Shown here: positions 16,040-37,198 of the stretch, one piece after another | How the letters are laid out: every line of letters begins with the position of its first letter | Position numbering within the stretch: the stretch's first letter is position 1 | Assembly: GCA_017988135.1 (NCBI GenBank) | Contig: JAGNSI010000005.1 | Coordinates: 1-37,199 of the forward strand | Origin: Pseudarcicella sp. | Lineage (GTDB): Bacteria; Bacteroidota; Bacteroidia; Cytophagales; Spirosomataceae | Reading direction: 5' to 3' | DNA length: 37,199 nt | Program-made: the position numbers and the translations under genes | Notes under the pieces: model-generated | What the model was told of the DNA's origin: nothing | Database searches by the model: none | What the model saw: only the letters and a program-made list of their open reading frames with translations

Positions 16040-16045
16040 ATAATT

Positions 16046-16393
16046 TTAGAATTTTAAACCACCTTCTCTAGCAGAATCAGCCAAAGATTTAATTTTACCA
16101 TGATATAAATAACCATTTCTATCGAAAACAACGCTAGAAATACCTGCTTCAAGAGCTAATTTTGCAATTTTCAATCCTACTTCTTTAGCAGAATTGATGT
16201 TTGCAGATTTCACGTCTTTAGCTTGAGAAGATGCTGCTACTAAAGTGCGTCCAATACTATCATCAACAATTTGAGCATAGATAGCAGTATTCGAACGAAA
16301 AACTGTCAATCTTGGTTTTGCTGTTGTTCCAGAAATTTTAGCTCTGATAGATTTTTTGATTCTATCTCTTCTTAATTCTTTTGAATTAGCCAT
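16046..16393 (-). CDS. rplR: 50S ribosomal protein L18
   Basis: From the ATG at 16393 the product is 115 residues, [20 protein letters not shown], exactly the family length. The open frame further up overlaps the end of rplF and codes no L18-like sequence, so it is not used. Conserved parts are [18 protein letters not shown] and [12 protein letters not shown] with the C-terminal REGGLKF. L18 binds 5S rRNA with L5 and anchors it to the central protuberance. A 19-nt repeated motif lies in the spacer just upstream. Confidence 0.97.
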
Positions 16394-16409
16394 TTGAATA
16401 AATATATTT

Positions 16410-16428
16410 TGTGGATTTCCGTCCCACG
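16410..16428 (-). repeat. Dispersed 19-nt motif, copy 1 (rplF-rplR spacer)
   Basis: Plus-strand TGTGGATTTCCGTCCCACG. The minus-strand RNA can form a short stem GUGGG/UCCAC with a 7-nt loop (ACGGAAA). A second copy with one change lies at 18482-18500 before rplE. Confidence 0.6.
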
Positions 16429-16472
16429 AATTTGAATAATATAAAATTGAAAAAAAGTAATAAAAGTAAATA

Positions 16473-17030
16473 CTATTTTTTACCTCCTGTTTTACCAGCT
16501 TTTCTTCTAACTTGCTCACCAATGAAGCGAATTCCTTTACCTTTGTAAGGTTCTACTTTACGTAGTGATTTGATTTTAGCAGCTACTTGACCTATCAATT
16601 GTTTGTCAATTCCTTCTAAAAATACTTTTGGATTTTGACCCTTATCCATAGATGTACTCACCTTAAGTTCTTCAGGGATAGCCATGAAAACTGCGTGAGA
16701 ATAACCTAAGTTAAGTTCTAAAATATTACCTTGATTGGCTGCTTTATAACCAACACCGATAATTTCCATTTCTCTTTTGTACCCTTCACTTACACCTACA
16801 ACCATGTTGTTGATAAGTGATCTATACAAACCATGAAGTGCTTTGTGTCTTTTTTGTTCGGTAGGACGTTTAACGACTAACTCAGAACCTTCAATATCAA
16901 CTGTGATATCAGGATTAATTACTTCAGATAATACTCCTTTAGGACCTTTTACAGTTACTGTGTTGTCAGAACTTACATCTACTGTAACGCCTGAAGGAAT
17001 AGTAATTAGTTTTTTGCCAATTCTTGACAT
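16473..17030 (-). CDS. rplF: 50S ribosomal protein L6
   Basis: The 185-residue product starts [20 protein letters not shown] and shows the two-repeat L6 fold, ending with the conserved [21 protein letters not shown] stretch (split here at KGKGIRF) that contacts the sarcin-ricin loop region of 23S rRNA. The length is standard. It lies 59 bp after rpsH, in a spacer with only short inverted repeats. Confidence 0.98.
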
Positions 17031-17089
17031 AAAAAATAAAATTTATAGCTTACATTATGCACAAAAAGTGCTTTTCAGCTGATTGAAAA

Positions 17090-17485
17090 TTAATAAATAT
17101 AACACAATACTTCACCACCAACATTAAGCACTTTGGCTTCTTTGTCAGTTATAACACCTTTTGAAGTAGAAAGTATTGCTATACCTAGTCCGTTCAATAC
17201 TCTTGGAAGCTCATCTGCTCCTTTGTATTTTCTAAGACCTGGTTTTGAAATTCTTGTTAAATTAACGATAGCTGGCTGTTTAGTAACAGGATTGTACTTA
17301 AGTGCTATTTTAATAGTACCTTGAACGGTAGTATCGTCAAATTTATAATTCTGTATATATCCTTTATCAAAAAGAACTTTAGTCATTTCTTTTTTGATAT
17401 TAGAAGCAGGAATTTCTACGATTCTATGGCGTGATTTTATTGCGTTTCTTAATCGTGTTAAGTAATCTGCTATTGGATCTGTCAT
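17090..17485 (-). CDS. rpsH: 30S ribosomal protein S8
   Basis: The 131-residue protein starts [20 protein letters not shown], the usual S8 N-terminus, and ends [18 protein letters not shown], then [13 protein letters not shown]8 binds the central domain of 16S rRNA, and in enterobacteria it represses the spc operon at the rplE region. It is separated from rpsN by 103 bp that hold a 9-bp perfect hairpin. Confidence 0.98.
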
Positions 17486-17504
17486 TTTTTTACTTTATTA
17501 GCAA

Positions 17505-17526
17505 CAAGCCAAAATAATTTGGCTTG
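17505..17526 (-). other. Hairpin in the rpsN-rpsH spacer
   Basis: Perfect 9-bp stem CAAGCCAAA/TTTGGCTTG with a 4-nt loop ATAA (TTAT in the message), about 20 nt before the rpsH start. Confidence 0.55.
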
Positions 17527-17588
17527 CAAAATTACGAAAATGAATTTATAAAAACAATCTTATTTAAGATTATTAAATTTTAAAAAAA

Positions 17589-17858
17589 TTACCAACTAGA
17601 CTTTGTAACTCCTGGTATTAAACCATCTGAGGCCATTTGTCTGAAAGTAACACGGTTTATACCAAATTTTCTCATATAACCACGTGGTCTTCCTGTTAAT
17701 TTACAACGATTGTGTAAACGTATAGGTGAGGCATTTTTAGGTAATTTATCTAATCCAACATAATCACCTGCTGCCTTAAGGGCAGCACGCTTTGCAGCAT
17801 ATTTGGCAACTGTTGCTTCTTTTTTTCTTTCTCTAGCTTTTACTGATTCTTTAGCCAT
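17589..17858 (-). CDS. rpsN: 30S ribosomal protein S14 (zinc-free long form)
   Basis: The 89-residue protein starts [20 protein letters not shown] and ends with RNRC-like [20 protein letters not shown] and TKSSW. It lacks the CXXC pairs of the short zinc-binding form, so it is the C-minus S14 of about 90-100 residues. It assembles late in the 30S head near S3 and S10. Confidence 0.98.
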
Positions 17859-17910
17859 TTTATTTTATTCTTTAATAGAAATAATATATTGATTTGAACA
17901 AATAGTAAAT

Positions 17911-18465
17911 TTATTTTTTACCGCTTACAAATGGCATTCCTAATTCTTTAAGTAAAGACAAGGATTCTTCATCTGTATTAGCATTGGTAACAAAAGTGAT
18001 ATCCATACCAGAGATCTTATTTACTTTATCAATAGATATTTCTGGAAATATAATTTGCTCTTTTACACCTAATGTATAGTTACCTCTTCCATCAAAACCT
18101 TTGTCTGAAATACCTTTAAAGTCTCTCACACGTGGTAATGAAATAGTAACTAAACGATCTAAAAATTCATACATTTTGTCGCCACGTAAAGTAACTTTTA
18201 CACCAATTGGCATATTTTCACGTAACTTAAAATTTGAAATAGCTTTTTTAGAAATAGTAGCTACAGCTTTTTGACCAGCTATTACTGTAATTTCTTCGAT
18301 ACCAATATCAACCAATTTTTTGTCAGATACGGCAGCGCCGATACCTTTGTTAATAACAATTTTAGTAAGCTTTGGTACTTGCATTACTGACTTGTATTGA
18401 AATTTTTCTTTTAATGCAGAAACAATTTCATTCGTATATTTTTCTTTTAACCTTGGAGTTGCCAT
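17911..18465 (-). CDS. rplE: 50S ribosomal protein L5
   Basis: The 184-residue product starts [20 protein letters not shown] and carries [17 protein letters not shown], then [15 protein letters not shown] and the RVRDFKGIS segment, all typical of L5. With L18 it binds 5S rRNA and makes the bridge to S13 in the 30S head. The spacer to rplX contains copy 2 of the 19-nt motif. Confidence 0.98.
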
Positions 18466-18481
18466 GATAAATTCTATGGTA

Positions 18482-18500
18482 TGTGGATTTCCGACCCACG
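18482..18500 (-). repeat. Dispersed 19-nt motif, copy 2 (rplX-rplE spacer)
   Basis: Plus-strand TGTGGATTTCCGACCCACG, identical to 16410-16428 except one base inside the predicted loop. It lies 17 bp upstream of the rplE start, just as copy 1 lies 17 bp upstream of the rplR start. Confidence 0.6.
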
Positions 18501-18539
18501 TAGATTATTGTAAATAATGTTAAAAATTACTAAGGTATT

Positions 18540-18872
18540 TTAAATAAAATTACCTGTAGCTTTTGAATATCTTTGTAATTTACCTTTTTCGTTCAATTTA
18601 CGACCTGTGCGAACTGCTTTGCCGTTTTCGAATATCATTAGGTTTGACAAATGAATTGAACCTTCTTTTTTAACTATTCCACCTTGTGGGTTATTTGCTG
18701 AAGGTTTAACGTGTTTTGTTTGAAGATTTACTCCTTCTACAATCGCACGATTTTTATCTACCAAAACTTGCTTGATTATGCCTGTTTTACCTTTAGAATT
18801 TCCTGAAATAACGATAACATTATCTCCAGATCTTACATGCAACTTTGGTTTATGATTAAGTTTTCTTTCCAT
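18540..18872 (-). CDS. rplX: 50S ribosomal protein L24
   Basis: The 110-residue protein carries the KOW motif near residues 13-40 ([19 protein letters not shown]) and the conserved [10 protein letters not shown] and [14 protein letters not shown] segments. L24 initiates 50S assembly and lies by the tunnel exit. It follows rplN by 14 bp. Confidence 0.98.
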
Positions 18873-18886
18873 GATAATTATTATTG

Positions 18887-19255
18887 TTATAGTACTTCAG
18901 GTGCCAATGAAACGATTTTCATAAAGCCTGCATCTCTTAACTCTCTAGCAACAGGCCCGAAGATACGAGTACCTCTTGGCTCATCATTATTGTTAAGTAA
19001 TACAGCAGCATTGTCTTCAAAACGAATATAAGAACCATCTTTACGACGAATTTCTTTTTTTGTTCTTACTACAACTGCTTTTGAAACTGTACCTTTTTTC
19101 ATACTTGAAGAAGAAAGTGCAGATTTTACTGAAACTACTACTTTATCTCCAATAGATGCATATCTTTTACCAGTACCACCTAATACTCTAATTACGAGTA
19201 CTTCTTTGGCTCCTGAGTTATCGGCTACGCCGAGTCTTGATTCTTGCTGTAACAT
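18887..19255 (-). CDS. rplN: 50S ribosomal protein L14
   Basis: The 122-residue product starts [20 protein letters not shown], invariant for L14. It contains [20 protein letters not shown] and ends LAPEVL at exactly the family length. L14 contacts L19 and the bridge to 16S helix 14 and is the docking site of the silencing factor RsfS. Confidence 0.98.
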
Positions 19256-19283
19256 ATTTTTAAATAAATTTATTTTTAATAAT

Positions 19284-19295
19284 TTGAACGTTCAA
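19284..19295. other. 12-bp perfect palindrome in the rpsQ-rplN spacer
   Basis: TTGAACGTTCAA lies 11 nt upstream on the plus strand beyond the rplN start-rpsQ gap centre. It shares the GTTCAA/TTGAAC half-sites with the palindrome at 24883-24902 in the rplC leader. Function unknown. Confidence 0.3.
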
Positions 19296-19322
19296 TAAAT
19301 ATTGAAGAAATAAACTATTAAA

Positions 19323-19580
19323 TTATTTCGCTTTTTCAATTATTTCAACCAATCTCCATCTTTTGTTTTTAGACAATGGACGAGTTTCCATAACTTTTAC
19401 AGTATCACCGATACCTACTTCATTTTTCTCATCATGAGCCATCAATTTGGTTGATTTTTTCATGAATTTTCCATACAATGGATGCTTTACTTTACGTTCA
19501 ACAACTAGGGTAAATGATTTGTCCATCAAGTTACTCACTACTTTGCCTACTCTTACTTTTCTTAGATTTCTCTCTTCCAT
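19323..19580 (-). CDS. rpsQ: 30S ribosomal protein S17
   Basis: The 85-residue OB-fold protein starts [20 protein letters not shown] and carries the S17 signature with [33 protein letters not shown] and WRLVEI. It is a primary binder of the 16S 5' domain. It lies 79 bp after rpmC, in a spacer with two small hairpins. Confidence 0.98.
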
Positions 19581-19610
19581 AAAATTTGATAAGAATTGGT
19601 TAAAAAAATT

Positions 19611-19637
19611 GACTTCAAGCTATATGTTGATGAAGTC
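19611..19637 (-). other. Hairpin in the rpmC-rpsQ spacer
   Basis: Perfect 7-bp stem GACTTCA/TGAAGTC with a 13-nt loop, 30 nt before the rpsQ start. Confidence 0.4.
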
Positions 19638-19643
19638 TGTTAT

Positions 19644-19659
19644 TTCTAGTAAACTAGAA
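19644..19659 (-). other. Hairpin directly after the rpmC stop
   Basis: Perfect 6-bp stem TTCTAG/CTAGAA with a 4-nt loop. It abuts the rpmC stop codon on the minus strand. Confidence 0.4.
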
Positions 19660-19845
19660 TTACTTTGTAGATGATATAGCAGTTTCCAAGCGAGCTATCA
19701 ATTTACGAGCTTGACGCAAACGTAAAGGATTTTCAATTGGAGAAATAGCATGAGCCATTTTCAAACGAGCATAAGCATCTTTTTCAGCACCGACTTGAGT
19801 TACCAGTTGGTCAAAAGTCATTTTTTGAATTTCTGCGTTTTTCAT
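19660..19845 (-). CDS. rpmC: 50S ribosomal protein L29
   Basis: The 61-residue protein is a two-helix hairpin with the expected KNAEIQKMTFDQL start and the C-terminal IENPLRLRQARKLIARLETA motif. L29 sits at the tunnel exit beside L23 and helps dock the signal recognition particle and trigger factor. Bracketed by hairpins on both sides. Confidence 0.97.
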   Translation of the reverse strand: MKNAEIQKMTFDQLVTQVGAEKDAYARLKMAHAISPIENPLRLRQARKLIARLETAISSTK

Positions 19846-19861
19846 TTTGTTATTAAAATTG

Positions 19862-19896
19862 GATATTATTAATGTTGTTTGGACATTAATAATATC
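19862..19896 (-). other. Strong perfect hairpin in the rplP-rpmC spacer
   Basis: Arms GATATTATTAATGT (19862-19875) and the exact reverse complement (19883-19896): 14 bp with a 7-nt loop, filling most of the 57-bp spacer. No U-run follows, so it is unlikely to be a terminator. Confidence 0.6.
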
Positions 19897-19902
19897 TATT
19901 TA

Positions 19903-20325
19903 CTATGATTCTTGATAATCTCTACGCACTACAAATGTAGTACGGCAAGGCAATTTTTGAGCTGCTAATCTTAAAGCTTCTTGAGCTACTGCTAAAGGTA
20001 CTCCAGCCGATTCGAATAAAATTGTTCCTGGCTTGATGTTAGCTACCCAGTACTCTGGAGCTCCTTTACCTTTACCCATACGAACCTCTGCAGGTTTTTT
20101 GGTAATAGGTTTGTCAGGGAATATACGAATCCAAACTTGACCTTCACGCTTCATTGCTCTAGTTACAGAGATACGAGCTGCTTCTAATTGACGAGCTGTA
20201 ATGCGACCTGGTTCTAGAGATTTTATAGCGAAAGATCCAAAGTCAATTTCATGACCACGAGTTGCTAAGCCTCTTACTCTACCTTTTTGTTGCTTACGAA
20301 ATTTCGTTCTTTTTGGTTGTAACAT
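19903..20325 (-). CDS. rplP: 50S ribosomal protein L16
   Basis: The 140-residue protein starts [20 protein letters not shown] and has the conserved [40 protein letters not shown] and GTILFE segments. The Arg in the [11 protein letters not shown] loop corresponds to the residue that can be hydroxylated in other bacteria. L16 lies by the A-site tRNA elbow and organises the peptidyl transferase centre. Confidence 0.98.
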
Positions 20326-20342
20326 TATCTTAAATTCTATAT

Positions 20343-20361
20343 GTTGAGTTTAGCACTCAAC
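20343..20361 (-). other. Hairpin in the rpsC-rplP spacer
   Basis: Perfect 7-bp stem GTTGAGT/ACTCAAC with a 5-nt loop, between the rpsC stop and the rplP start. Confidence 0.5.
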
Positions 20362-20370
20362 TAGTATTAA

Positions 20371-21240
20371 TTATTTTTTAGCTCCACCTCTGTTTGGACC
20401 ACCTGCTGATCCACCACGGTTGTTGTTTCCTCCACGAGAATTAGCTCCTCTTGAGTCAGCACCACCAGCATTAGCTGAATCGTTTCTTCCTCTTCCGCCT
20501 CTTCCACGCTTGTCATCATCACCACCACGTGGGTTACGTCCACCACGATCGTTTGGTCTTGCATCTGAAGCAGTTGCTTGAAGTCCCATGTTAGCATTTG
20601 GCGAAAGATCACGTTTTCCATAAACTTCTCCACGGAATACCCAAACTTTAATACCTATTTTACCATATACTGTCAAAGCTTCTGATATTGCATAGTCTAT
20701 ATCAGCTCTTAGTGTATGCAAAGGTATACGACCTTCTTTATAACCTTCAGAACGTGCCATTTCTGCACCTCCTAAACGACCTGACAATTTCAATTTAATT
20801 CCTTGTGCTCCAACACGCATAGCTGATGCTATAGCTTGTTTCATGGCACGACGGAAAGATATACGAGCTTGTAATTGTTGAGCAATTGCTTCGCCTATCA
20901 ATTTAGCGTCTATCTCTGGTCTTTTAATTTCAAATATATTTATTTGAACATCTTTACCAGTGATTTTTTTAAGCTCTTCTTTTACTTTATCTACCTCTTG
21001 ACCACCTTTACCAATTACTACTCCTGGACGAGCTGTATTGATTGTCAAAGTGATTCTCTTGAGTGTTCTTTCGATGATAACTTTAGAGATAGAAGCTTTC
21101 GGTATACGAGCAGCTATATATCTTCTGATTTTTTCATCTTCAACTAATTTATCTGAGAAAGTCTTCCCTCCGTACCAATTAGAGTCCCAACCTCTTACGA
21201 TACCAAGTCTAAAACCAATTGGGTTAATTTTTTGTCCCAT
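20371..21240 (-). CDS. rpsC: 30S ribosomal protein S3 with long RGG-rich C-terminal tail
   Basis: Residues 1-212 are a complete S3: [20 protein letters not shown], a type II KH domain with the IGKGG loop at residues 76-80, and the C-terminal domain with [31 protein letters not shown] and [20 protein letters not shown]3 shapes the mRNA entry channel and has helicase activity with S4. Residues 213-289 are an added low-complexity tail rich in Gly, Arg, Asn and Asp with six RGG triplets, which the standard protein (about 210-240 residues) lacks. The tail is probably disordered, and RNA binding is inferred by analogy with RGG boxes. Neighbours and start are normal. Confidence 0.97.
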
Positions 21241-21264
21241 TTTTTGATATTTGTCTTATATTGA

Positions 21265-21633
21265 TTATTCGGTTATAGCAACTGAAGGTGCATTTTTAGA
21301 ATCCAATACTAATGTAATGTGATTCGAGCGTTTCAAGATACGATGTCCTCTTCCTTGTGGAGCTGGACGAAGTCTTTTCAAAGCGGCACCACCATCAACA
21401 AAGATGGTTTTGATGTATAAATTGGCATCTTCTAAATTGATGTCTTGGTGTTTGTTTTGCCAGTTTGAAATGGCAGACAACAAGAGTTTCTCAATTGATT
21501 TAGCTCCAACTTTAGGCTCAAATTTAAGTATTCCTAAAGCTTTATTTATATTTTGACCTCTTACCATATCTGCAACTAAACGCATTTTTCTTGGTGAAGT
21601 AGGTACATTTCCTAATTTTGCAACTGATTCCAT
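21265..21633 (-). CDS. rplV: 50S ribosomal protein L22
   Basis: The 122-residue product has the L22 core with [20 protein letters not shown] and the beta-hairpin arm including [20 protein letters not shown], which lines the nascent-peptide tunnel and is where macrolide resistance changes arise in other bacteria. Length is at the short end of normal. It is 24 bp upstream of rpsC. Confidence 0.97.
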
Positions 21634-21651
21634 TTTATTTATAGAATAAAG

Positions 21652-21689
21652 ATTAATTAATTGGTTTTCTTTAAAAAACTGTAATTAAT
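21652..21689 (-). other. Two-part hairpin in the rpsS-rplV spacer
   Basis: Outer 8-bp stem ATTAATTA/TAATTAAT, small internal loop, inner 5-bp stem GTTTT/AAAAC. It is imperfect and A/T-rich. Confidence 0.35.
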
Positions 21690-21696
21690 AATCAAA

Positions 21697-21975
21697 TTAT
21701 CTTTTCCCTTTATCTTTTTTAGCGATATGACCTCTGAAGTTACGAGTAGGAGAAAATTCACCTAGTTTGTGACCCACCATATTTTCGGTGGCAAATACTG
21801 GAATGAATTTATTTCCGTTGTGTACAGCGAAGGTATGACCAACGAAATCTGGTGAAATCATTGAGCGCCTTGACCATGTTTTGATTATTGATTTCTTGCC
21901 TGAATCATTCATGGCTTGCACCTTGTTGTCAAGGCGGTAATCAATATAAGGACCTTTTTTTAGTGAACGTGCCAT
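21697..21975 (-). CDS. rpsS: 30S ribosomal protein S19
   Basis: The 92-residue protein starts [20 protein letters not shown] and has the invariant [20 protein letters not shown] and [16 protein letters not shown] segments. It sits in the 30S head next to S13. The start is 3 bp after the rplB stop, so translation is probably coupled. Confidence 0.98.
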
Positions 21976-21978
21976 TTA

Positions 21979-22806
21979 CTATTTTTTCTTTCTACTGATG
22001 ATAAGACGATTAGACTGTTTTTTTGGATTACGGGTCTTTTTACCTTTAGCCAACAAACCTTTACGTGAACGAGGGTGACCTCCTGATGAACGACCTTCAC
22101 CACCACCCATTGGGTGATCGACTGGGTTCATAACAACACCACGAACTCTTGGGCGACGTCCTAACCAACGGTGACGACCTGCTTTCCCTAAGTTTACGTT
22201 CATGTGATCTGAGTTAGATACTGTACCTACTGTAGCTATACATCTAGCTAGTACCATTCTCATTTCACCTGATGGTAATTTAAGTGTTGCGTATTTTCCT
22301 TCTCTTGCTAATAGCTGTGCATAAGTTCCTGCTGAACGAGCTAATTCTGCTCCTTTTCCTGGTATCAATTCAATTGCGTGAACAATTGTACCTAATGGAA
22401 TGTTTGCTAATGGAATAGCGTTTCCAACTTCTGGTGCTACTTTTTCGCCTGAGATGATTGTTTGACCAACTTTTATACCTTGTGGTGCTAGGATATACGA
22501 CTTTTCTCCGTCTGTATATTCTATCAAAGCTATACGAGCTGTTCTATTTGGATCGTATTCAACTGTCAATACAGTTGCTGAAACGTCAAATTTGTTTCTT
22601 TGGAAGTCGATTATACGATAACGACGTTTGTGACCTCCACCAATGTAGCGCATCGAACGGTGTCCGTCTGCATTACGACCACCCGTTCTTTTGATAGGCT
22701 CAAGTAATGGCTTGTACGGTTTTGAGGCTGTTATTTCCTCAAATGTAGGTGCTATTCTTTGGCGTTGCCCTGGGGTGATTGGTTTTATTTTTCTAATTGC
22801 TGCCAT
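21979..22806 (-). CDS. rplB: 50S ribosomal protein L2
   Basis: The 275-residue product has the N-terminal OB-like and SH3-like domains ([39 protein letters not shown]) and the C-terminal [20 protein letters not shown] motif, whose His is close to the peptidyl transferase centre. The tail is basic. It is the usual length. It follows rplW after a 97-bp spacer with a bulged hairpin. Confidence 0.98.
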
Positions 22807-22865
22807 TTAAAATGTTCATTTGTCGGGATGAACTCCCATAGTATACAGATAAATTATTTTTAAAT

Positions 22866-22895
22866 GCTTTTGATTTTATAATTTCAAATCAAAGC
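22866..22895 (-). other. Hairpin in the rplW-rplB spacer
   Basis: Ten-bp stem with one bulged T (22866-22876 with 22886-22895, GCTTTTGATTT/AAATCAAAGC) and a 9-nt loop. Confidence 0.5.
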
Positions 22896-22903
22896 TTCAA
22901 GAA

Positions 22904-23191
22904 TTATATTCCTGAGTAAAAGTCGATTATTTCGCCTGCGGCTAATGTTACGATCGCTTTTTTGAAAGTTGAAGTTTTACCCGTAGATACTTTTGTACGT
23001 GTACTTCTTGATTTTTTCTTACCTAATTGACGCATTGTCTGCACTGAAACTACCTCAACGTTAAACATTTTTTTAACTTCTTTGGCTATTTCAATTTTAT
23101 TGGCAGTTAGCTCTACAACAAAAGAATATTTCCCTTTGGCTTGCATGGCTTGCGACTTTTCTGTAAGTGCTGGCTTTTTGATAATGCTCAT
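22904..23191 (-). CDS. rplW: 50S ribosomal protein L23
   Basis: The 95-residue protein starts MSIIKKPALTEKSQAMQAKG and contains YSFVVELTANKIEIAKEVKK, then the internal loop with KKSRSTRTKV and the strand KKAIVTLAAGEIIDFYSGI. It provides the main docking site for trigger factor and SRP at the tunnel exit. It starts 4 bp after the rplD stop. Confidence 0.97.
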   Translation of the reverse strand: MSIIKKPALTEKSQAMQAKGKYSFVVELTANKIEIAKEVKKMFNVEVVSVQTMRQLGKKKSRSTRTKVSTGKTSTFKKAIVTLAAGEIIDFYSGI

Positions 23192-23195
23192 TTGC

Positions 23196-23825
23196 TTATT
23201 TGCTAAAAGATGATTCTATTTTTGAAATCGCACCTTCTGCTATTAAAAGTTGAGATGCATTTAATAAGTCATATGTATTGACTTGACCTGCCGTTGTTAC
23301 TTTAACTTTAGGTATGTTACGGCTAGATAGATACACATTTGTGTTTTCTTCTGGCAATATCAATAAAGTTTTAGTGTTTACTAACGATAGTGCGTTTAGA
23401 AGGGCTACATATGATTTTGTTTTTGGCGAATCAAATGTGAAGTCTTCTAATATGGTGATGTTGCTTGATTGTGCTTTTGAGGCATATACTGATTGACGTG
23501 CCAATGATTTCACTTTCTTGTTTAGCTTGAAGTGATAATCTCTTGGACGTGGACCGAATACACGACCACCACCTTTGAACAATGGTGATTTCATTGAACC
23601 TGCTCTTGCACCACCTGTTCCTTTTTGTTTTTTGATTTTGCGAGTAGAACGTGATACTTCAGCTCTCTCTTTTGATTTGTGTGTACCTTGACGTTGATTC
23701 GCCAAATACTGCTTAACATCCAAGTAAACAACGTGTTGATTCGGCTCAATACCGAAAACATCGTCAGAAAGGGTGGCTTTCTTACCTGTTTGTTTTCCTG
23801 CTATATTATATATTGATAATTCCAT
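23196..23825 (-). CDS. rplD: 50S ribosomal protein L4
   Basis: The 209-residue product has the extended tunnel loop (KIKKQKGTGGARAGSMKSPL, FKGGGRVFGPRPRDY) and the C-terminal alpha/beta domain with SLARQSVYASKAQ. In enterobacteria L4 represses its own S10 operon through the leader RNA. Here the long structured rplC leader makes the same kind of control conceivable, but that is inference. Confidence 0.97.
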   Translation of the reverse strand: MELSIYNIAGKQTGKKATLSDDVFGIEPNQHVVYLDVKQYLANQRQGTHKSKERAEVSRSTRKIKKQKGTGGARAGSMKSPLFKGGGRVFGPRPRDYHFKLNKKVKSLARQSVYASKAQSSNITILEDFTFDSPKTKSYVALLNALSLVNTKTLLILPEENTNVYLSSRNIPKVKVTTAGQVNTYDLLNASQLLIAEGAISKIESSFSK

Positions 23826-23852
23826 TTTTGTCTAAATTTTGAAAAGTGAATA

Positions 23853-23879
23853 GTTGAGTTTGATGTTTTTTCAAACAAC
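23853..23879 (-). other. Hairpin in the rplC-rplD spacer
   Basis: Six-bp stem GTTTGA/TCAAAC plus an outer GTT/AAC separated by a 2-nt bulge; 7-nt loop. Confidence 0.4.
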
Positions 23880-23886
23880 AAGCATT

Positions 23887-24504
23887 CTATTTTTCAAGGA
23901 TAATATATGAGTTTTTAGCACCTGGCACTGAACCTGATATAACGATAAGGTTTTTGTCAGAATATACTTTAAGTACTTGCAAGTTTTGAACTTTCACTCT
24001 GTTTCCTCCTGTACGTCCTGCCATGCGAAGACCTTTGAATACTCTTGATGGGAATGAACATGCTCCAATTGAACCTGGATGACGACCTCTATTGTGTTGT
24101 CCGTGTGTTTGACCTCCTACTCCTGAGAATCCGTGTCTTTTTACAACACCTTGAAAACCTTTACCTTTTGAGGTTCCGATGGCATCGATAAAGTCACCTT
24201 CTGCAAATAATGCTACGTCGATAACATCGCCTAGTGACAACTCTTGTTCGAATTCTCTGAATTCTACCAATTTCTTCTTAGGTGTTGTGTTGGCTTTTTT
24301 AAAGTGACCTGAAAGAGACTTTGTTGTATGTTTCTCTTTCTTTTCGCCATATCCTAATTGGATAGCGCTATAGCCTTCTTTAGCAACTGTTTTTACTTGC
24401 GTTACTACACAAGGACCGGCTTCAATCAGCGTACAAGGGACAGCGGTACCGTCTGCATTGTAGAGGCTGGTCATTCCGATTTTTTTTCCGATAATTCCAG
24501 ACAT
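23887..24504 (-). CDS. rplC: 50S ribosomal protein L3
   Basis: The 205-residue protein starts [20 protein letters not shown] and carries the [35 protein letters not shown] and [19 protein letters not shown] segments that reach the peptidyl transferase centre; the Gln of the GGQ-TH segment is a methylation site in other bacteria. It is the first gene of this operon. No rpsJ is found upstream, where most bacteria have it. Confidence 0.98.
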
Positions 24505-26704: not shown

Positions 26705-26742
26705 AAAAAGGGTTAATGAAACAAACATCATTAACCCTTTTT
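26705..26742 (+). terminator. Terminator of gpmI
   Basis: Fifteen-bp perfect stem AAAAAGGGTTAATGA/TCATTAACCCTTTTT (26705-26719 with 26728-26742), 8-nt loop, U-rich tail. The ATG inside it (26716) is not a gene start. Confidence 0.93.
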
Positions 26743-26744
26743 TA

Positions 26745-26776
26745 TTTGATACACAGACAAATAAAGCTTAAATTTG
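26745..26776 (+). promoter_or_regulatory. Promoter of the T9SS propeller protein
   Basis: TTTG (26745-26748), 20 nt, TAAATTTG (26769-26776): an exact consensus match. Expected start near 26783 leaves about 17 nt before the ATG at 26800. The -33 box begins 3 bp after the gpmI terminator stem. Confidence 0.75.
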
Positions 26777-26799
26777 CAAAAAATCATATATTTTTATAC

Positions 26800-29700
26800 A
26801 TGAAAACAAATACGATACAACTAAAAGCATTTAACTCACCTTACAGACATTGTAGAGCAACCATAAGGGGATTAGCGAGCTTATTATTCTTTTTATGGCT
26901 AGGTACTTTACAGACAAATGCCCAAGACTGGAACGCTATAATCAAACGTAGTGCTGGTAATCACGAAAACTCTAGTACCTCTGCAAGATCTGAAGAAGAC
27001 AATTTTGGAAGATCAGTAGCTATCTCTGGGGATATTGCTATTGTAGGGTCATATGGGGAAAATTATGATGCCAATGGAAAAGATTCATTGAAATATGCAG
27101 GTGCAGCGTACATTCTACAACGAGTGGAGGGCAATTGGACTCAAATTAAAATGATAACAGCACCTTATCGTGAAAGGACTGATTTCTTTGGAGTTTCAGT
27201 AGCTATTTCTGGGGATTATGCCATTGTGGGAGCAGATCATGAAGATGAAAATGTGAATGAACAAAATTCACTTAGTAATAGTGGCTCAGCTTATATATAC
27301 TACCGTAACCAAGGCGGAACAGATAACTGGGGACTACAAAAGAAAATCACTGAACCATATAGAAAAGAATATAACAAGTTTGGCTTGAAGGTAGCTATCT
27401 CAGGGAACTATGCTATTGTTGGTGTACATTATGATAAGTACGACACAAATGAGCAAAATGAAAAATATTTGGCAGGTTCTGCCTATATATTCTACCGCAA
27501 TCAAGGTGGAACAGACAAATGGGGAATGCAACAAAAAATTACTGCACCCATTCGTGAGGATGGTGATAATTTTGGCGAATCCGTAGCTATATCTGGAGAT
27601 TATGTCATTGTGGGAGCATATGGTGAAAGCGAAGATTCAAATGAACAAAATACAAAAACTATGGCTGGTTCTGCCTATATATTCTACCGTAACCAAGATG
27701 GGTCAAATAAATGGAAATTGCAACAAAAAATCACTGCACCCTATCGAAGAGATTTCAGCTATTTTGGTATTTCAGTCGCTATTTCAGGCGAACATATCAT
27801 TGTTGGAGCATCTGGAGAAGAAAAAGGTGCCTATATTTTTTACCGCAACCAAGGTGGGGCAGACAAATGGGGAATACAAAAAACAATTAGTGTTTATTAT
27901 AGAGAATCAACTGACTCTTTTGCACAGTCAGTTGATATTTCTGGAGATTATGCCATCGTAGGAGCCCCAAATGAAGATGAAGACGCAAATGAAAAGAATT
28001 ATATAAAAAATGCAGGCTCTGCCTATATATACTACCGCAACCAAGGGGGAACAAACAATTGGGATTTTCAAAAAAAAATCACAGCTCCAAAACGTTCCAT
28101 AGATGACATATTCGGCTTATCTGTTGCTATTTCAGGAGATTATGCCATAATAGGAGCCTTAAATGAAAATGAAGATGCAGATGAACTAAATGAAATAGAA
28201 AATGCAGGATCGGTATATTTTATGGAACGAAAAGGAATAAATATAATTAGAGAACCTGTGCAATACCGTAGCAATGCAAAGAGTCTATCTTTCTCTTCAG
28301 CTTCTGGATGGCAAAGCTCACCTAACGGAATTGATTGGAGCAATGCAACATTCCCTCCTTATGGTAATGAGTGTACTCTAGCTATTACAATACGCAATGG
28401 GCACAATGCTACAATAAGCTCTAACATAAAACTTGATCAACTCACTATTGAGAATGAAGGCAACATTACTATTGATGCTAATAAAACGCTCACTATAACT
28501 AATGATGCTGGAATAGATCTAGACATACAGGGCACAGGAAGTATTGTAGGAGCTGGAAATTTCACACTCTTAAGAGAAGCAACTTTCCGAAATTCTAATA
28601 CAAATGGCTTTAATGCTATAAATATAAAAGGGATAAAAACATTTGGTTCTTCTACAAACTATGAATTCAATGGTACTACTCTTCAAACTGTCAACAACCC
28701 GAAAGGCATATTTGCCCAAAACTTCACCATCAACAATGCTTTTGGAGCTAAATTAAGTAATGACATCGTTATTAAAGGCACACTTGCTACGAATTTAGGA
28801 GATTTAGATTTAAATGGTCATAATGTAGAGCTATATCATCAAGGGGGATTTTTGTCTGAAAATTTAGCTTTAAATCATATTGTAACAGATAACACAGCAA
28901 CAGACGAAAACAATCAAGGTGGAAGTATTATTTTATCAGCATATGTTTATAACATAGGCCAAAACATCAAAGGTACAGGGCTTTGGCTTCAAAGAAATGA
29001 TAAATTTGAAAAATCTATTGATATAGATATAATCAGAAAGCACTATAAGGTTGACTCAAAAACTTTTAAGCGTGTTTATAAAATATCTAATTATCCTTCA
29101 GATTCCACGGAAAATAAAAATATAACTATGCGCATCTACTATCCTGCTGAGGAAACCGCAGGTTCAACAAGTGGTTTTCGAATATTTCGTATGGAATCTG
29201 CTGTAGCTGGTTGGAAAAACGCTTCCAATATTGCTGCTGGATTTACTGATGGTACAAATGGGGCAGGTTATGTTGAAGCAACAAATATCAATATGTATTC
29301 TACTTGGACGGTTGGCCCAAAAAATATTAATTTGTCTACCACATTGCATTACCGTAGCAATGAAAGAAATGTATCTTTTTCTTCTGCAGTAGGCTGGCAA
29401 AGTTCAAATGACAATATCAATTGGAGTAATGCGACTCTACCTCCAGATGGCAATCAAAGTAAGCCTGTTATTACTATTCGCAACAACAATACCGCTTCCT
29501 TGAACTCTAACATTACACTTGAACAAATCAAAATAGAAAGTGGAGGTAGAATCACTATTGATGCCGGCAAAACGCTCACAATATCCAATGGTACAGACAT
29601 AGACCTTGACATACAAGGTACAGGAAGCATTACAGGAAATGGAAATCTCACACTCTTAAAAGGAGCTACTTTCCGTACTTCTCATACAAATGGTTTTAAT

Positions 29701-30687
29701 GCTATCAATGTAAAAGGTACAAAAACCTTTGAAACTGGAGCAAGCTATGAATTCAATGGCACTACATTACAAACTATCAATAACCCTGCAGGTATTTCTG
29801 CTAATAACTTCACCATTAACAATGCTTTAAGTGCAACGCTAAGTAATAACATAAGGATAAGTGGCACGCTTGCTACGAAATTAGGCGATTTAGATTTAAA
29901 TGGAAATAATATATACTTAGATGGAATAATGTCTGAAAATTTAGCTTCAAACCATATCGTAACTGACTACTCAGCCACAGGAGAAAAAAATCAAGGTGGA
30001 AGCATTATATTTTCTATTACAATTAGTCCATTTGGTTCTGACATCAAAGGTACAGGACTTTGGCTACTACAATATGAAGGAAATAATATTATCCTTAATG
30101 TAATACGTAAACACTATAAGGCAGGCAACAATGCTATTAAACGTGTTTATCAAATCGCTGGAAATTCTGCAGGTACGAATACAACTATGCGTATTTACTA
30201 TCCTACTGAAGAAATCGTAAGCATACAAGGTACCATTGGCTTGTTTCGATTGGATACTTCAAAAACTGGCTGGAAAAATGCTTTTGATATTGATGCTGGA
30301 TTTACAAATGGCATAAATGGAACAAATTATGTAGAAGCCAAAGACATTAATGATTTATCTCAATTATGGACAGTTGGTCCAAAAAATGCTAATTTATCAA
30401 CTATAACCAGTTTGGAATTGAGTGGTAAAAAATCGGAAGGAAAGGTGGCAATTTATCCCAACCCTGTAAAAGACGTGCTTACCATATCACTAGAGGGCAA
30501 TACTCAAAAAGAAATAGCTGTTACTTTGTTTGATGATCAAGGAAAATATTACTTACAACGTAACGTGGCCTTAAAGGCAGGAAAAGCCCTACTCAACCTG
30601 AAAAACATTCAAAAAAGTGGCTTGTATTTCTTGCGTATGCAAATAGGTAAAGATTGGGTTATGGAAAAAGTATTTATTGAGAGGTAA
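26800..30687 (+). CDS. T9SS-exported protein: seven FG-GAP-like repeats, duplicated beta-rich units, type A sorting domain
   Basis: Read from the ATG at 26800 (an in-frame ATG 84 bp up lies in the gpmI terminator), the product has 1295 residues. A long basic signal peptide (hydrophobic core GLASLLFFLWLGTLQTNA) is followed by seven repeats of about 61-64 residues (26998-28237) sharing DxFGxSVAISGDYAIVGA and AGSAYIFYRNQGG. Seven such units suit a seven-bladed propeller; repeat 5 lacks about 12 residues. Two related units of about 360 residues follow (28261 and 29347 onward, about 1086 bp apart), with ITIDAGKTLTISNGT and a beta-helix look. The end (VAIYPNPVKDVLTISL to VMEKVFIER) is a T9SS type A domain. 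It is secreted or surface-attached; binding or adhesion is inferred, and no catalytic motif was seen. Confidence 0.88.
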   Translation: MKTNTIQLKAFNSPYRHCRATIRGLASLLFFLWLGTLQTNAQDWNAIIKRSAGNHENSSTSARSEEDNFGRSVAISGDIAIVGSYGENYDANGKDSLKYAGAAYILQRVEGNWTQIKMITAPYRERTDFFGVSVAISGDYAIVGADHEDENVNEQNSLSNSGSAYIYYRNQGGTDNWGLQKKITEPYRKEYNKFGLKVAISGNYAIVGVHYDKYDTNEQNEKYLAGSAYIFYRNQGGTDKWGMQQKITAPIREDGDNFGESVAISGDYVIVGAYGESEDSNEQNTKTMAGSAYIFYRNQDGSNKWKLQQKITAPYRRDFSYFGISVAISGEHIIVGASGEEKGAYIFYRNQGGADKWGIQKTISVYYRESTDSFAQSVDISGDYAIVGAPNEDEDANEKNYIKNAGSAYIYYRNQGGTNNWDFQKKITAPKRSIDDIFGLSVAISGDYAIIGALNENEDADELNEIENAGSVYFMERKGINIIREPVQYRSNAKSLSFSSASGWQSSPNGIDWSNATFPPYGNECTLAITIRNGHNATISSNIKLDQLTIENEGNITIDANKTLTITNDAGIDLDIQGTGSIVGAGNFTLLREATFRNSNTNGFNAINIKGIKTFGSSTNYEFNGTTLQTVNNPKGIFAQNFTINNAFGAKLSNDIVIKGTLATNLGDLDLNGHNVELYHQGGFLSENLALNHIVTDNTATDENNQGGSIILSAYVYNIGQNIKGTGLWLQRNDKFEKSIDIDIIRKHYKVDSKTFKRVYKISNYPSDSTENKNITMRIYYPAEETAGSTSGFRIFRMESAVAGWKNASNIAAGFTDGTNGAGYVEATNINMYSTWTVGPKNINLSTTLHYRSNERNVSFSSAVGWQSSNDNINWSNATLPPDGNQSKPVITIRNNNTASLNSNITLEQIKIESGGRITIDAGKTLTISNGTDIDLDIQGTGSITGNGNLTLLKGATFRTSHTNGFNAINVKGTKTFETGASYEFNGTTLQTINNPAGISANNFTINNALSATLSNNIRISGTLATKLGDLDLNGNNIYLDGIMSENLASNHIVTDYSATGEKNQGGSIIFSITISPFGSDIKGTGLWLLQYEGNNIILNVIRKHYKAGNNAIKRVYQIAGNSAGTNTTMRIYYPTEEIVSIQGTIGLFRLDTSKTGWKNAFDIDAGFTNGINGTNYVEAKDINDLSQLWTVGPKNANLSTITSLELSGKKSEGKVAIYPNPVKDVLTISLEGNTQKEIAVTLFDDQGKYYLQRNVALKAGKALLNLKNIQKSGLYFLRMQIGKDWVMEKVFIER
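28261..30393 (+). repeat. Internal tandem duplication of about 1.08 kb in the T9SS protein gene
   Basis: Two units begin with matching YRSN sequence at 28261 and 29347. Both pass through VSFSSAxGWQSS-type, TLTITN/TLTISN, TLQTxNNP, LATxLGDLDLNG and IRKHYK segments before WTVGPKN. They are similar but clearly diverged in sequence and gaps, so the duplication is old. Confidence 0.8.
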
Positions 30688-32440: not shown

Positions 32441-33199
32441 ATGACAATAGGTTTGGTTTTGTCTGGAGGTGGTGCCAGAGGAATTGCACATTTGGGCGTA
32501 CTAAAAGCAATTCAAGAAAAAGGCATTAAAATAGATGGAATCTCTGGCTGTAGTGCTGGATCTATAGCTGGGGCAATGTTTGCAGCGGGATATTCGCCAG
32601 AGCATATTCTCGAAATTGTGGTTTCGGCTAATACCCTAAAAGCCATGAGACCTTCTTGGAACAGAAGCGGTTTGTTGAAAATGAAAAAACTGGAGGAAGA
32701 ATATTTAAAGTATATTCCACACAATGATTTTGAGAAATTGCAAATCCCTTTAACAGTGAATGCTACAGACATTGAAGCGGGTGAAATTATATATTTTTCG
32801 AAAGGTGAAATCATAAAACCCGTAATGGCGTCATGTTGTATTCCTGGTTTGTTTGAACCTATTGTTTATCAGAAAAAAACTTTTGTTGATGGTGGAGTTT
32901 TAAACAATATGCCGGTAAGCCCTCTATTGGGAAAATATGATTTTATTATTGGTAGCCATTGTAATCCTTTTGGGTATCAAAAAAAAACAAAATCTATTAC
33001 GTCTATTTTTCAAAAATCTCTTTTTTTAGCCATCAACAACAATTCAAAAAATAGCCTAGAGCAATGTAACTTATTGATAGAACCTCCAGAACTGACTAAA
33101 TACGATCCTTTTGATATTAGAAAATCAAAAATCATATTTGAAATTGGTTATAAATTTGGATTGGCAAAATTGAACTCTCAAAAGTTGTTGAAACTTTGA
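32441..33199 (+). CDS. Patatin-like phospholipase family protein
   Basis: The 252-residue protein is a minimal patatin/RssA-type lipid acyl hydrolase. The oxyanion loop is SGGGARG (residues 8-14). The nucleophile is S38 in GCSAG, and the dyad Asp is D150 in FVDGGVLNN (DGG form). All catalytic residues are present, so it is probably active on membrane phospholipid or other acyl esters. It lacks a signal peptide and is expected in the cytoplasm. A basic C-terminal helix ends the protein. It follows the photolyase gene by 55 bp and may share its transcript. A 49-bp tandem repeat starts 11 bp after its stop. Confidence 0.93.
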   Translation: MTIGLVLSGGGARGIAHLGVLKAIQEKGIKIDGISGCSAGSIAGAMFAAGYSPEHILEIVVSANTLKAMRPSWNRSGLLKMKKLEEEYLKYIPHNDFEKLQIPLTVNATDIEAGEIIYFSKGEIIKPVMASCCIPGLFEPIVYQKKTFVDGGVLNNMPVSPLLGKYDFIIGSHCNPFGYQKKTKSITSIFQKSLFLAINNNSKNSLEQCNLLIEPPELTKYDPFDIRKSKIIFEIGYKFGLAKLNSQKLLKL

Positions 33200-33209
33200 T
33201 CTAGCAAAA

Positions 33210-33370
33210 CTACAATGGCAACCGAAAAGGCATTATTGAATTAAGAACAATATTAAAACAACAATGGCAACCAATTAGGCATTATTGAATTGAGAACAAA
33301 AATAAAACAACAATGGCAACCAATTAGGCATTATTGAATTGAGAACAAAAATAAAACAACAATGGCAACC
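33210..33370. repeat. 49-bp tandem repeat carrying a terminator arm
   Basis: Three full units (33210-33258, 33259-33307, 33308-33356) plus a 14-bp partial unit (33357-33370). Units 2 and 3 are identical; unit 1 differs at about 7 bases. Each begins CAACAATGGCAACC (CTACAATGG in unit 1), which is the left arm of the terminator at 33355-33391. There are no spacer differences as in CRISPR. Confidence 0.92.
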
Positions 33371-33391
33371 TTTTGGGTTGCCATTGTTGTT
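33355..33391. terminator. Bidirectional terminator between the patatin gene and the SdrD-repeat gene
   Basis: Sixteen-bp perfect stem AACAACAATGGCAACC/GGTTGCCATTGTTGTT (33355-33370 with 33376-33391) and a 5-nt loop. It serves two convergent genes. U-tracts are short. The left arm is also present in the tandem units upstream, so alternative pairings are possible. Confidence 0.8.
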
Positions 33392-33409: not shown

Positions 33410-36400
33410 CTATTGTTTTGTAAATTTAAGTGTATTGATTTTACCTTTGTTTAATACCCTTACGATATACGTGCCTGGGTTTAAACCTGTCAAATCTAAA
33501 GATAATCCTTTCTCTGTCATTGACATTTTAGGCTCAAACAATTTACCCGTCATGTCTATAATAGCTACTTTTGAATTTGATAAATCTTGATTGGTTATTT
33601 CTAAGTTTACTTTGTCCACTTTTGATGGATTTGGATAAATTTTAGCCAATTCTTTGATTTTAAACTCAACCAGCCTTATCGATGATAACGAACTAGAACC
33701 ATCTAAATCAATCATTTTTAAACGATAATAGTTTATGCCATTATTCGGTTTTGTATCTACAAAATTGTATTTACTGATAGATTTTGATTTATTTAAAGCC
33801 GATACATTATGTATGGTTTCAAAATTAACGCCATCTATACTTCTTTGTACTTCGAAACGATCAGCTCCAATTTCTTCACTTGTAGACCATTCTACTTGAG
33901 TAGAAACGTTGTCTTTAGTTTTAACATTAAAGCTACTCAATTTAACCAATAATGGACTACCTTGTATAAGACCTGCGTCAAGGTTATTGGTTTTTTGACC
34001 TCTTACTATTTCAAAAGAAGCTGTCACACCAGTTGTACTACCAGCTGGAATATCACTATTAGTCAAAGGATTTGAACCTGTAGCAGAAGTTGTAGTAGAA
34101 CCAGAAGGCAAGTTGGTAAACGTAATTGTATAACCAGTACCAGCAGGTACTTCGCTGATCAAATATTTACCATCTCCATCTGTAATGGCTGTACCTACTA
34201 CATCACCAGAGCTATTTTTCAATGTTACAAATACACCAGGAACAGCTGGTTCATTTGCGTCTCTTGAACCGTTCAAGTTGTTGTCATACCAAACATAATC
34301 GCCTACACTTCCCAACAATACTGGTCTCAAACCACCGTCTACGGTAAGGTCTATTTCTCCAGCAGAAAGTACCACTGTAGAAGTGATTGCTGTTGAAGGA
34401 CTTGCATCATTATTGGTATTGTCTTGATTATTGGTATTGTTTGGTGTAGTTTGTTGCGTAAATTCTAGCGCTGCAGGTACAGTTGTAAAGCCAACTTTAT
34501 AAGTACCTGGTTCTAAGTTTGCAAACAAATATTTACCATTTGCGTCAGTAATTGCACTTGCCAAAACAGTAACTCCATCAGCTTGATATAACGTAACAGT
34601 TACACCTGCAATTCCAGCTTCATTAACACCTTGTACTCCGTCTCCATCTGCATCATACCAAACTACATTTCCTAATGCTGCTTTGGTTGTAGTAAAGCCT
34701 GCATCTGTGTTGGCAACATTGGTATTTCCAGTAAGGGTAACCGACGGTGTTGTAGCTGAAATAGGATTAACATCACTATCATTTGTATCAGTACCTTGGT
34801 CTGCTGTTGTAAATGTAAACCCAACTGGTTTAACAAATTCTACACTATAAGTTCCATTTGGAAGGTTTCCGAAAAGGTATTGCCCAGTTTCGTCTGTTAA
34901 AATACTAGAAACTATATTTCCATTATCGTCTAACAAATTCACCGTAACACCTGGCAATCCTGGCTCTGTTCCGTTTTGAATACCATCACTTGCGATACCT
35001 GATCCGTCTCCGTTATCTAACCAAACTTTGTTACCAATACTATTGGTTGCCGAAACATTGAATATACCCAAATCTAGTGTTAAATTATCTTCGCCTTGTG
35101 CCAAAGTAAAGACTGGCGACAAACCTGACATCGGATCTGCATCTGAATCTTTTGCATCATCAGCACCTTGATCATTTTTAGCTGTTTGAATAGCATATCC
35201 ACTTGGTAAGCTCGAACTCACAAATTCAACTTGATAATTACCTGCATCTAAGTTTGTAAAAATGTAATTACCCAAAGAATTGGTTATTGTGGTTTCAAAT
35301 GGCGTAGTCAATTCAGTTCCTGAAATTAAGCCATCATTATCAGTATCCAACAACAAGTTTACTGTAACATTGCTCACCCCTTGCTCTCCGGTGTTTTGAA
35401 TTCCATCGTTATTGGCATCTACCCACACTAAATCTCCAACACTTCCTTTACCAGCAGGAATACTTGCTCTGATACCACCATCTACATTTGAAAAATCTGT
35501 AGAAGCTGGCAAAACAATCGGATTGGTAGTGCCCGAGGCTAGGTTTGCGTCACTATCAAGGTTATCGTTCGAACCAACATTTGACTTTGTAAATGTAGTA
35601 CCTTTAGGCAAATTAGTAAACACTATTTTGTATGTTCCTGCAGGTAAATCTACGAAGCTGTAATTACCATTTGCGTCAGTTACAACAACATATGGCTTAC
35701 CAGTTGCTGGATTATTTACTGGAACGTTTGATGCATCTACTAATGAAACTGTCACATTCGGAACACCCACTTCAGCGTTATTATCTAAACCATCGGCATT
35801 AATATCATTCCAAACTCTATTACCTAAACTTGACAAAGGAGTCACAGAATTATTAAATATTCCCAAGTCAATTCCAGGATAGTTCTGACCTTGAGATAAG
35901 TTATAAACTGCAGACAACAAAGTTCCAGTATTGAAATCACTATCCGTTGAATTATTATTTACACCACCTGGTGCTGTATCTTGCCCAGTTACATCATAAT
36001 TTACTGGCAAACCAGAAACCTCAACATAGTATTTCGCTGGATTTAATCCACTGAACAAATAATTACCCAAAGCATCAGAAACTACTACATATGGCTGAAC
36101 ACCTGCTATAAACGGATTATCTACATCAGTGTCATCTCCTCCACCTATTGCACCATCTGCACCTGCGTTTTTCAATTTCAAAGTTACATTCGGAACTACA
36201 GGCTCACCTGCATCTTGTTTACCATCTTTGTTTAAATCATTCCAAACCAAGTCTCCTAAACTAGCTTTAAGATCATCTTTCAAACCAGCATCTATTCCCG
36301 TAACAAATGTACCAGCAACTCCAGTATTAATCAAACCAGTCTTAGTAGTCGAAGTATCAGCATCACTATTGTTTGTACTTGAAGCAACACTTGTGCCATT

Positions 36401-37198
36401 GGTAGTTGTGAAAACAGTTCCTGGTTTTGGACTAAATCCAATAATGTAATCTGTATTTTCAGGTAAATTATTAAACAAATATTTGCCTGAAGCATCTGTT
36501 TTGGTAATAGCTACAACATTATTACCTGTTGCATCAAAAAGCGTAACCGTAACACCAGCCATAGGTGGTTCTACTGATGAGGCATCTTGTATTCCATCTT
36601 GATTGGCATCAAACCATACATAATCACCAATACTGTTTGGCGAAACTGATGTTTTGAAAATTATACCAGCATCAACATCAAGCTCTGTTTCATTACCTGA
36701 CAAATTGATAGTACCAGTTTTTCCTGATAAAATATTGGCATCACTGTTTAATAAATTACCATCGTCAGTACCTGAACTAATTGTAAATGAGTAATTAGCT
36801 GGCAAAGTAAAGGCAACATTATAATCGCCATTTGGTAAATGTTCAAACAAATATTTACCATAAGCATCTGTGGTAGTGCTTCCTACTAATATATCGTCTG
36901 AATCACCTGCTAATCCATTCACACCATTAGCAAATAAACTTACTGCAACATTTGCAACGCCTGGCTCTGTACCATTTTGAACACCATCTAGAGCAGTTCC
37001 TCCACCTGCACCCATGTCTAACCAAACTTTATCTCCAATAGCATTTTCAATATTCACCAAACCTGCATCAACATCATTTTCTGTTTCGCCAGCTGAAAGT
37101 GTTACTACATAACTTCTACCTGTAGTTTGATTTACATCACTACCTGTAGTTGCTGTACCAGTTTCGTTGTCGGCTGTATTGGTATTTGTTGAAAATAA
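33410..37198 (-). CDS. T9SS-exported SdrD_B-repeat protein, C-terminal part (5' end outside window)
   Basis: The frame is open to the window edge, so about 1262 residues are the C-terminal part of a larger protein. After the tail of one repeat come eight prealbumin/Cna-B-like SdrD_B domains of about 115-145 residues, starting near 37045, 36634, 36265, 35840, 35443, 35044, 34681 and 34311. Each has the SIGDxVWxDxNxDGxQ start, GVxVTLxxxxG and TDxxGxYLFxNLPxGxY strands, then a Ca-like NNSDxD loop and DxGL/DxGI end. A fibronectin-like domain (about 33940-33670, EEIGADRFEVQRS) and a T9SS type A domain (KIYPNPSKVDKVNLEI to TLKFTKQ) complete it. It is probably a surface stalk or adhesin, which is inference. 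It shares a terminator with the patatin gene. Confidence 0.9.
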   Translation of the reverse strand, partial: LFSTNTNTADNETGTATTGSDVNQTTGRSYVVTLSAGETENDVDAGLVNIENAIGDKVWLDMGAGGGTALDGVQNGTEPGVANVAVSLFANGVNGLAGDSDDILVGSTTTDAYGKYLFEHLPNGDYNVAFTLPANYSFTISSGTDDGNLLNSDANILSGKTGTINLSGNETELDVDAGIIFKTSVSPNSIGDYVWFDANQDGIQDASSVEPPMAGVTVTLFDATGNNVVAITKTDASGKYLFNNLPENTDYIIGFSPKPGTVFTTTNGTSVASSTNNSDADTSTTKTGLINTGVAGTFVTGIDAGLKDDLKASLGDLVWNDLNKDGKQDAGEPVVPNVTLKLKNAGADGAIGGGDDTDVDNPFIAGVQPYVVVSDALGNYLFSGLNPAKYYVEVSGLPVNYDVTGQDTAPGGVNNNSTDSDFNTGTLLSAVYNLSQGQNYPGIDLGIFNNSVTPLSSLGNRVWNDINADGLDNNAEVGVPNVTVSLVDASNVPVNNPATGKPYVVVTDANGNYSFVDLPAGTYKIVFTNLPKGTTFTKSNVGSNDNLDSDANLASGTTNPIVLPASTDFSNVDGGIRASIPAGKGSVGDLVWVDANNDGIQNTGEQGVSNVTVNLLLDTDNDGLISGTELTTPFETTITNSLGNYIFTNLDAGNYQVEFVSSSLPSGYAIQTAKNDQGADDAKDSDADPMSGLSPVFTLAQGEDNLTLDLGIFNVSATNSIGNKVWLDNGDGSGIASDGIQNGTEPGLPGVTVNLLDDNGNIVSSILTDETGQYLFGNLPNGTYSVEFVKPVGFTFTTADQGTDTNDSDVNPISATTPSVTLTGNTNVANTDAGFTTTKAALGNVVWYDADGDGVQGVNEAGIAGVTVTLYQADGVTVLASAITDANGKYLFANLEPGTYKVGFTTVPAALEFTQQTTPNNTNNQDNTNNDASPSTAITSTVVLSAGEIDLTVDGGLRPVLLGSVGDYVWYDNNLNGSRDANEPAVPGVFVTLKNSSGDVVGTAITDGDGKYLISEVPAGTGYTITFTNLPSGSTTTSATGSNPLTNSDIPAGSTTGVTASFEIVRGQKTNNLDAGLIQGSPLLVKLSSFNVKTKDNVSTQVEWSTSEEIGADRFEVQRSIDGVNFETIHNVSALNKSKSISKYNFVDTKPNNGINYYRLKMIDLDGSSSLSSIRLVEFKIKELAKIYPNPSKVDKVNLEITNQDLSNSKVAIIDMTGKLFEPKMSMTEKGLSLDLTGLNPGTYIVRVLNKGKINTLKFTKQ

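Follow-up and report, generated by a model that had tools for sequence, protein, structure and literature searches.

Bacterial minisatellite or VNTR loci are short intergenic tandem arrays of near-identical units. REP and BIME elements are clustered palindromes, found chiefly 3′ of genes or where two genes converge, and some are repeated in tandem along with flanking DNA (PMC3733652). The PIT or TMECO intrastrand triplex element has the three-arm order L-R-R′, in which R′ is a direct repeat of R (PMC4666352). Template switching is known at quasipalindromes in E. coli (PMC7202029), and the homogenisation of arms together with inversion of the spacer is its published mark at inverted repeats (PMC8604942). 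Finally, the E. coli SbcCD nuclease cleaves hairpins that arise in replication, and the palindromes used in those studies are hundreds of bp long (PMC3315005, PMC4245961).

The window considered here, meaning the whole stretch of 37,199 nucleotides that was analysed, is contig C142 of a 2.70-Mb draft genome in 253 contigs, and unit counts in such a draft may be collapsed. Its T9SS domains, together with the properties of its relatives, make Bacteroidota, order Cytophagales, the probable lineage. It contains an array in which one arm of a terminator hairpin is multiplied. The units of the array run head to tail and fall within the 10-100 bp range of VNTR loci, as detected by TRF. REP and BIME elements place one palindrome sequence at many loci, while this array is unique in its genome and the spacers of comparable arrays are unrelated to one another. 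The arm, AACAACAATGGCAACC, is of mixed sequence and the spacer is ~33 nt, which sets the locus apart from the homopurine or homopyrimidine arms and short second loop of PIT/TMECO. On balance we favor the view that the array arose as a mutational by-product of the terminator palindrome, through a process that is at work across the genome.

Results

The array is a single tandem repeat at 33206-33370 (period 49, 3.4 copies, 93% matches by TRF), a start slightly upstream of the 33210 given in the original prediction. TRF and a repeat search resolve it into three spacers and four copies of one hairpin arm, at 33208-33223, 33257-33272, 33306-33321 and 33355-33370. The last of these pairs with the opposite arm, which is present once, at 33376-33391, to give a perfect 16-bp stem with a 5-nt loop. 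The full hairpin (33355-33391, 37 bp) folds at -26.4 kcal/mol on the plus strand and -25.0 kcal/mol on the minus strand, with z scores of -5.9 and -5.5, and 0 of 200 shuffles folded as well. The multiplied arm is the left arm when read on the plus strand and the right arm when read on the minus strand.

The original prediction, a tandem array that adds copies of one hairpin arm, is thus upheld by TRF, repeat search and folding, and the loops of 5, 54, 103 and 152 nt that it derived from four left arms are correct. The two units nearest the hairpin, units 2 and 3 (33255-33303 and 33304-33352), are identical, as had been noted. The 13-mer arm said to occur in each unit is not matched exactly by copy 1, which adjoins the patatin stop codon and reads TACAATGGCAACC, one base off. 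A recent expansion agrees with the identity of units 2 and 3. The unit of copy 1 is the most diverged of the array.

The array was seen once in the genome; the other match, on contig 238, is to a short and different terminator core. A 12-mer of the arm has one exact copy elsewhere, within coding sequence, plus matches with one mismatch. Among the genomic contigs searched, an exact 20-mer of the unit had one match, in a Melainabacteria assembly, which we take to be due to chance, and it was absent from the viral contigs searched. An Rfam search gave only matches far below gathering scores. No similar array was seen in the flanks of patatin relatives from other genera, a comparison that for minus-strand matches covered the upstream flank only.

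The array lies between two convergent genes identified from Pfam matches and open reading frames: a patatin-like phospholipase gene on the plus strand (32441-33199), and an SdrD_B-repeat gene with a Por_Secre_tail (T9SS sorting) domain on the minus strand (33410-37198), which is open at the contig end. The sequence that directly follows the stem is TTATTTTTGT on the minus strand, a U-tract at 33345-33354, and AATCCCC on the plus strand. The hairpin has the form of an intrinsic terminator on the minus strand, a stable stem of 16 bp with 7 G-C pairs followed by the U-tract, and a consensus terminator scan called it on that strand and not on the plus strand. The same scan found no matching U-tract for the patatin gene at this hairpin. 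Since the U-tract is on the minus strand only, the hairpin is the predicted terminator of the T9SS-tail gene, and the array therefore sits downstream of that gene's terminator. Read on the minus strand, each unit is one right arm and its U-tract. The description of four left arms sharing one right arm is a plus-strand view, in which no terminator-like tail follows. With the U-tract on the minus strand only, tuned termination of both convergent genes through the choice of left arm is possible but unsupported.

Two further features of the window were noted. A 192-bp repeat (27446-27819, 1.9 copies) lies inside an FG-GAP / Por_Secre_tail gene at 26716-30687 and presumably represents repeated FG-GAP domains. 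The minus strand at 12591-24504 carries a long stretch of mostly small open reading frames; only one of ten proteins scanned between 9374 and 24504 matched a phage family, weakly and of unknown function, so this run does not look like a prophage.

The pattern recurs in the same genome. We surveyed 1.17 Mb (43%) of the draft, a convenience sample of contigs, for hairpins whose arms are 14 bp or longer, and scored as positive those in which the 14 apical nt of one arm recur exactly no more than 150 nt away. Of 145 such long-stem hairpins, ten had an exact 14/14 extra arm copy: one in the window, and the others on contigs C12, C5, C8, C21, C23, C3, C29, C249 and C43. When each site was given the arms of other hairpins, this arm-swap null yielded 0.05 per set; at a looser cut of 12/14, 13 were observed against 2.2 by arm swap. 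All ten exact copies are on the arm's own side, at a spacing of 46-64 bp (mean 52, sd 5.5). The spacers and sequences of the loci are unrelated to one another. Their adjacent genes differ widely: among them are rpoC and the genes for pyruvate kinase, for a PurL-like enzyme and for an L31-like ribosomal protein (the last two named from their sequences). The same pattern at unrelated hairpins suggests that hairpins in general are prone to a copying error in this organism, and that this is not a quirk of one gene pair.

Several neighboring patterns were kept out of the count. Two arrays whose units contain whole small palindromes, one on C40 (period 44) and one on C250 (period 29), were excluded. 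The C40 array (1242-1357, with a further copy downstream at 1555-1582) consists of GGGGCGAATTGCATTTCGCCC palindromes with both arms and is a different, REP-like element. On C253, two complete terminators ~100 bp apart at 11527-11665, one for each of two convergent genes, have similar arms; the arm in common is imperfect (12/14) and the pair was left out. It is perhaps a duplicated whole terminator. A period-52 array at the start of contig C20 (63-253), with a T7 run per unit and no complete hairpin on the contig, is possibly another case truncated by assembly.

The extra copies have a consistent anatomy. Each retains one arm in full with its U-tract side, plus 0-8 bases from the apical end of the other, and at all seven loci detected by TRF the array edges lie no more than ~9 nt from the apex of the hairpin. 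In no copy could the outer part of the opposite arm be detected (P from 0.13 upward), on which ground we reject decayed full second terminators as a general account. At C23, C249 and C43 there is a single extra arm and the spacer is unrepeated. These three look like seeds, in which the segment of spacer plus arm could be amplified between two direct repeats. Unit identity drops away from the hairpin in five arrays; one array, on C5, is reversed, with a diverged unit at the hairpin end, and one is flat. Diverged units are 65-88% alike. In copy 1 of the window, the unit loop is the reverse complement of the full-hairpin loop at 6 of 7 positions, for which spacer shuffling gives P=0.003, and the loop is likewise inverted between units and full hairpin at C8. 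Perfected arms accompany the inversion at both loci; most other loci are without it.

For comparison, we used G035, G001 and G027, which represent three other genera of the family, and short loci from further relatives. Hairpins are about as dense in the relatives (~100-126 per Mb) as in this genome (124 per Mb), and an exact arm copy was found at 0 of their 98 hairpins (Fisher p=0.0065 against 10/145, where the ten include the window as the discovery case). Outgroup samples from Persicobacter, Fusobacterium and E. coli gave 14 long hairpins altogether, too few to inform. The best candidate among the relatives, a period-62 cluster in G035, was rejected: it is REP-like, with shared whole palindromes, and its pattern differs. 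The G035 clusters of GTAGCACGGGTTTCCAACCCGT-type palindromes, on contig C4 at 10323-10521, 15606-15726 and 16297-16576, adjoin an open reading frame (15746-16388) that is Y1 transposase-like by eye. SbcD and SbcC are both present in G035, G001 and G027. In this genome, estimated to be 100% complete, SbcD had no match and SbcC only a 25-bit match to its first 100 positions, which we do not call present. No SbcD was found in further genomes of the family (G011, G018, G020, G029, G033 and G013); the array survey compared this genome mainly with the three that bear SbcCD.

Discussion

Palindrome-driven template switching followed by slippage is the most likely origin of these arrays, in agreement with one suggestion of the original prediction, that slippage was seeded by the palindrome. 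While the hairpin is replicated, the nascent strand would misfold or switch template near the apex, and the product would be an extra copy of one arm, carrying no more than a few bases from the apex of the other, ~50 bp off on the same side. This would give the order L-loop-R-spacer-R′. As R and R′ are direct repeats of ~20 bp, slippage or recombination could then amplify the spacer-R segment to n+1 arms and n spacers, and the units beside the hairpin would tend to be the newest. The gene would retain its terminator throughout, because the stop-proximal copy retains both arms. The excess of arm copies over the arm-swap null, the single-arm seeds, the apex-bounded edges, the five arrays in which the nearest units are most alike and the lack of exact arm copies in the relatives sampled all argue for the by-product model, as does the inverted loop in the window and at C8, which matches the published mark of template switching. 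Because the loop is not inverted at most loci, fold-back copying would not be required everywhere. The model does not account for the ~50-bp spacing or for where the spacer came from, and it is drawn from one genome, a draft of 253 contigs, in which the diverged hairpin-end unit of C5 counts against it. Two other candidate causes were set aside: a reverse-transcriptase origin, as the genome has no RVT_1 match, and loss of mismatch repair, as MutS is present.

The lack of SbcCD may have mattered. It is tentatively possible that one-armed arrays build up at terminator hairpins in bacterial lineages that lack SbcCD. They would be a genome-wide record of an undescribed replication error, in which an arm is re-copied ~50 bp off and further units are then added at the hairpin end. 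The link between SbcCD absence and arrays is a correlation between one genome and three, a lead and not a demonstration, and the palindromes in the E. coli SbcCD studies are much longer than these hairpins.

The main rival is selection for extra termination. Each added right arm with its U-tract would serve as a backup terminator or transcription barrier, shielding the facing gene from RNA polymerase. We consider this unlikely, although the array does lie on the downstream, U-tract side of the terminator. Selection of this kind predicts functional stems in the units, and these are clear at C3 only, where the units have a fair stem followed by U8 (-9.9 kcal/mol). In the window, the full hairpin folds at ~-25 kcal/mol versus -5.7 kcal/mol for the repeat unit, and in eight of nine loci measured the extra units are weak (about -1 to -6 kcal/mol, against -19 to -27 kcal/mol for full hairpins). 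Eight of the ten loci lie between convergent genes, but this is not a significant excess over the 54 of 113 other intergenic long hairpins (p=0.095), and relatives with the same kind of terminators manage without arrays. The extra arms would also be unlikely to compete with the full hairpin: a fold of the whole region can pair the single arm of the window with copy 1 at the far end of the array, yet on the minus strand the neighboring arm is transcribed before it.

Quite unlikely, in our judgment, is the reverse order of events, in which the array came first and the hairpin second. A small tandem repeat with a short imperfect inverted repeat would have been perfected by template switching in its end unit, creating the terminator. 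Units at several loci do contain a short apical stem, the perfect long stem with an inverted loop is confined to the end unit in the window and at C8, and a yeast case took a 5-bp arm to 16 bp, with spacer inversion, in one step (PMC8604942). Single-extra-arm loci such as C23, C249 and C43 would be unexpected on this account, and the great majority of long perfect terminators are ordinary ones with no array (135/145).

A dispersed REP/BIME-like repeat family or an assembly artefact is highly improbable: the genome has two Y1-transposase matches (one above cut-off) and is a fragmented draft, but the arrays have no common sequence and the window array has no copy elsewhere in the genome (two observations that also led us to reject a shared mobile element), the REP-like cluster of G035 looks different in having whole palindromes of one shared sequence, and misassembly would hardly produce the diverged units.

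If the by-product model is true, ordinary terminator hairpins generate mutations of fixed geometry, with one arm copied on the same side, bounded by the apex and displaced by ~50 bp. The arrays of a genome would then be a record of the way it processes hairpins. A comparison of relatives that have SbcCD with others that lack it would make directly testable a long-standing question, what short chromosomal hairpins do without a hairpin nuclease. Our search of the literature on tandem repeats at terminators, minisatellites at convergent genes and hairpin-driven duplication found no one-armed arrays; this literature is limited, and the result is not proof of novelty.

Among known systems, minisatellite and VNTR loci resemble the arrays described here in being short, intergenic and tandem, with near-identical units, but here the array edge is at the apex of a terminator hairpin, the unit holds exactly one arm, and the pattern occurs at many loci. 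REP and BIME elements share the clustering of palindromes, the position downstream of genes or between convergent genes, and the occasional tandem arrangement with flanking DNA. They form one sequence family with both arms, whereas here the sequence is locus-specific and the extra copies are one-armed. TMECO has the same L-R-R′ order; in contrast to its homopurine arms, 3-nt second loop and shared consensus, the arms here are mixed, ~30 nt apart and locus-specific. Quasipalindrome template-switch mutation, in E. coli and yeast, has in common with these loci the inverted-repeat hotspots and, in the window and at C8, the perfected arms and the inversion of the loop (spacer). In those events a palindrome already in place is perfected or has its loop inverted, while here a whole arm is re-copied ~50 bp away and then amplified.
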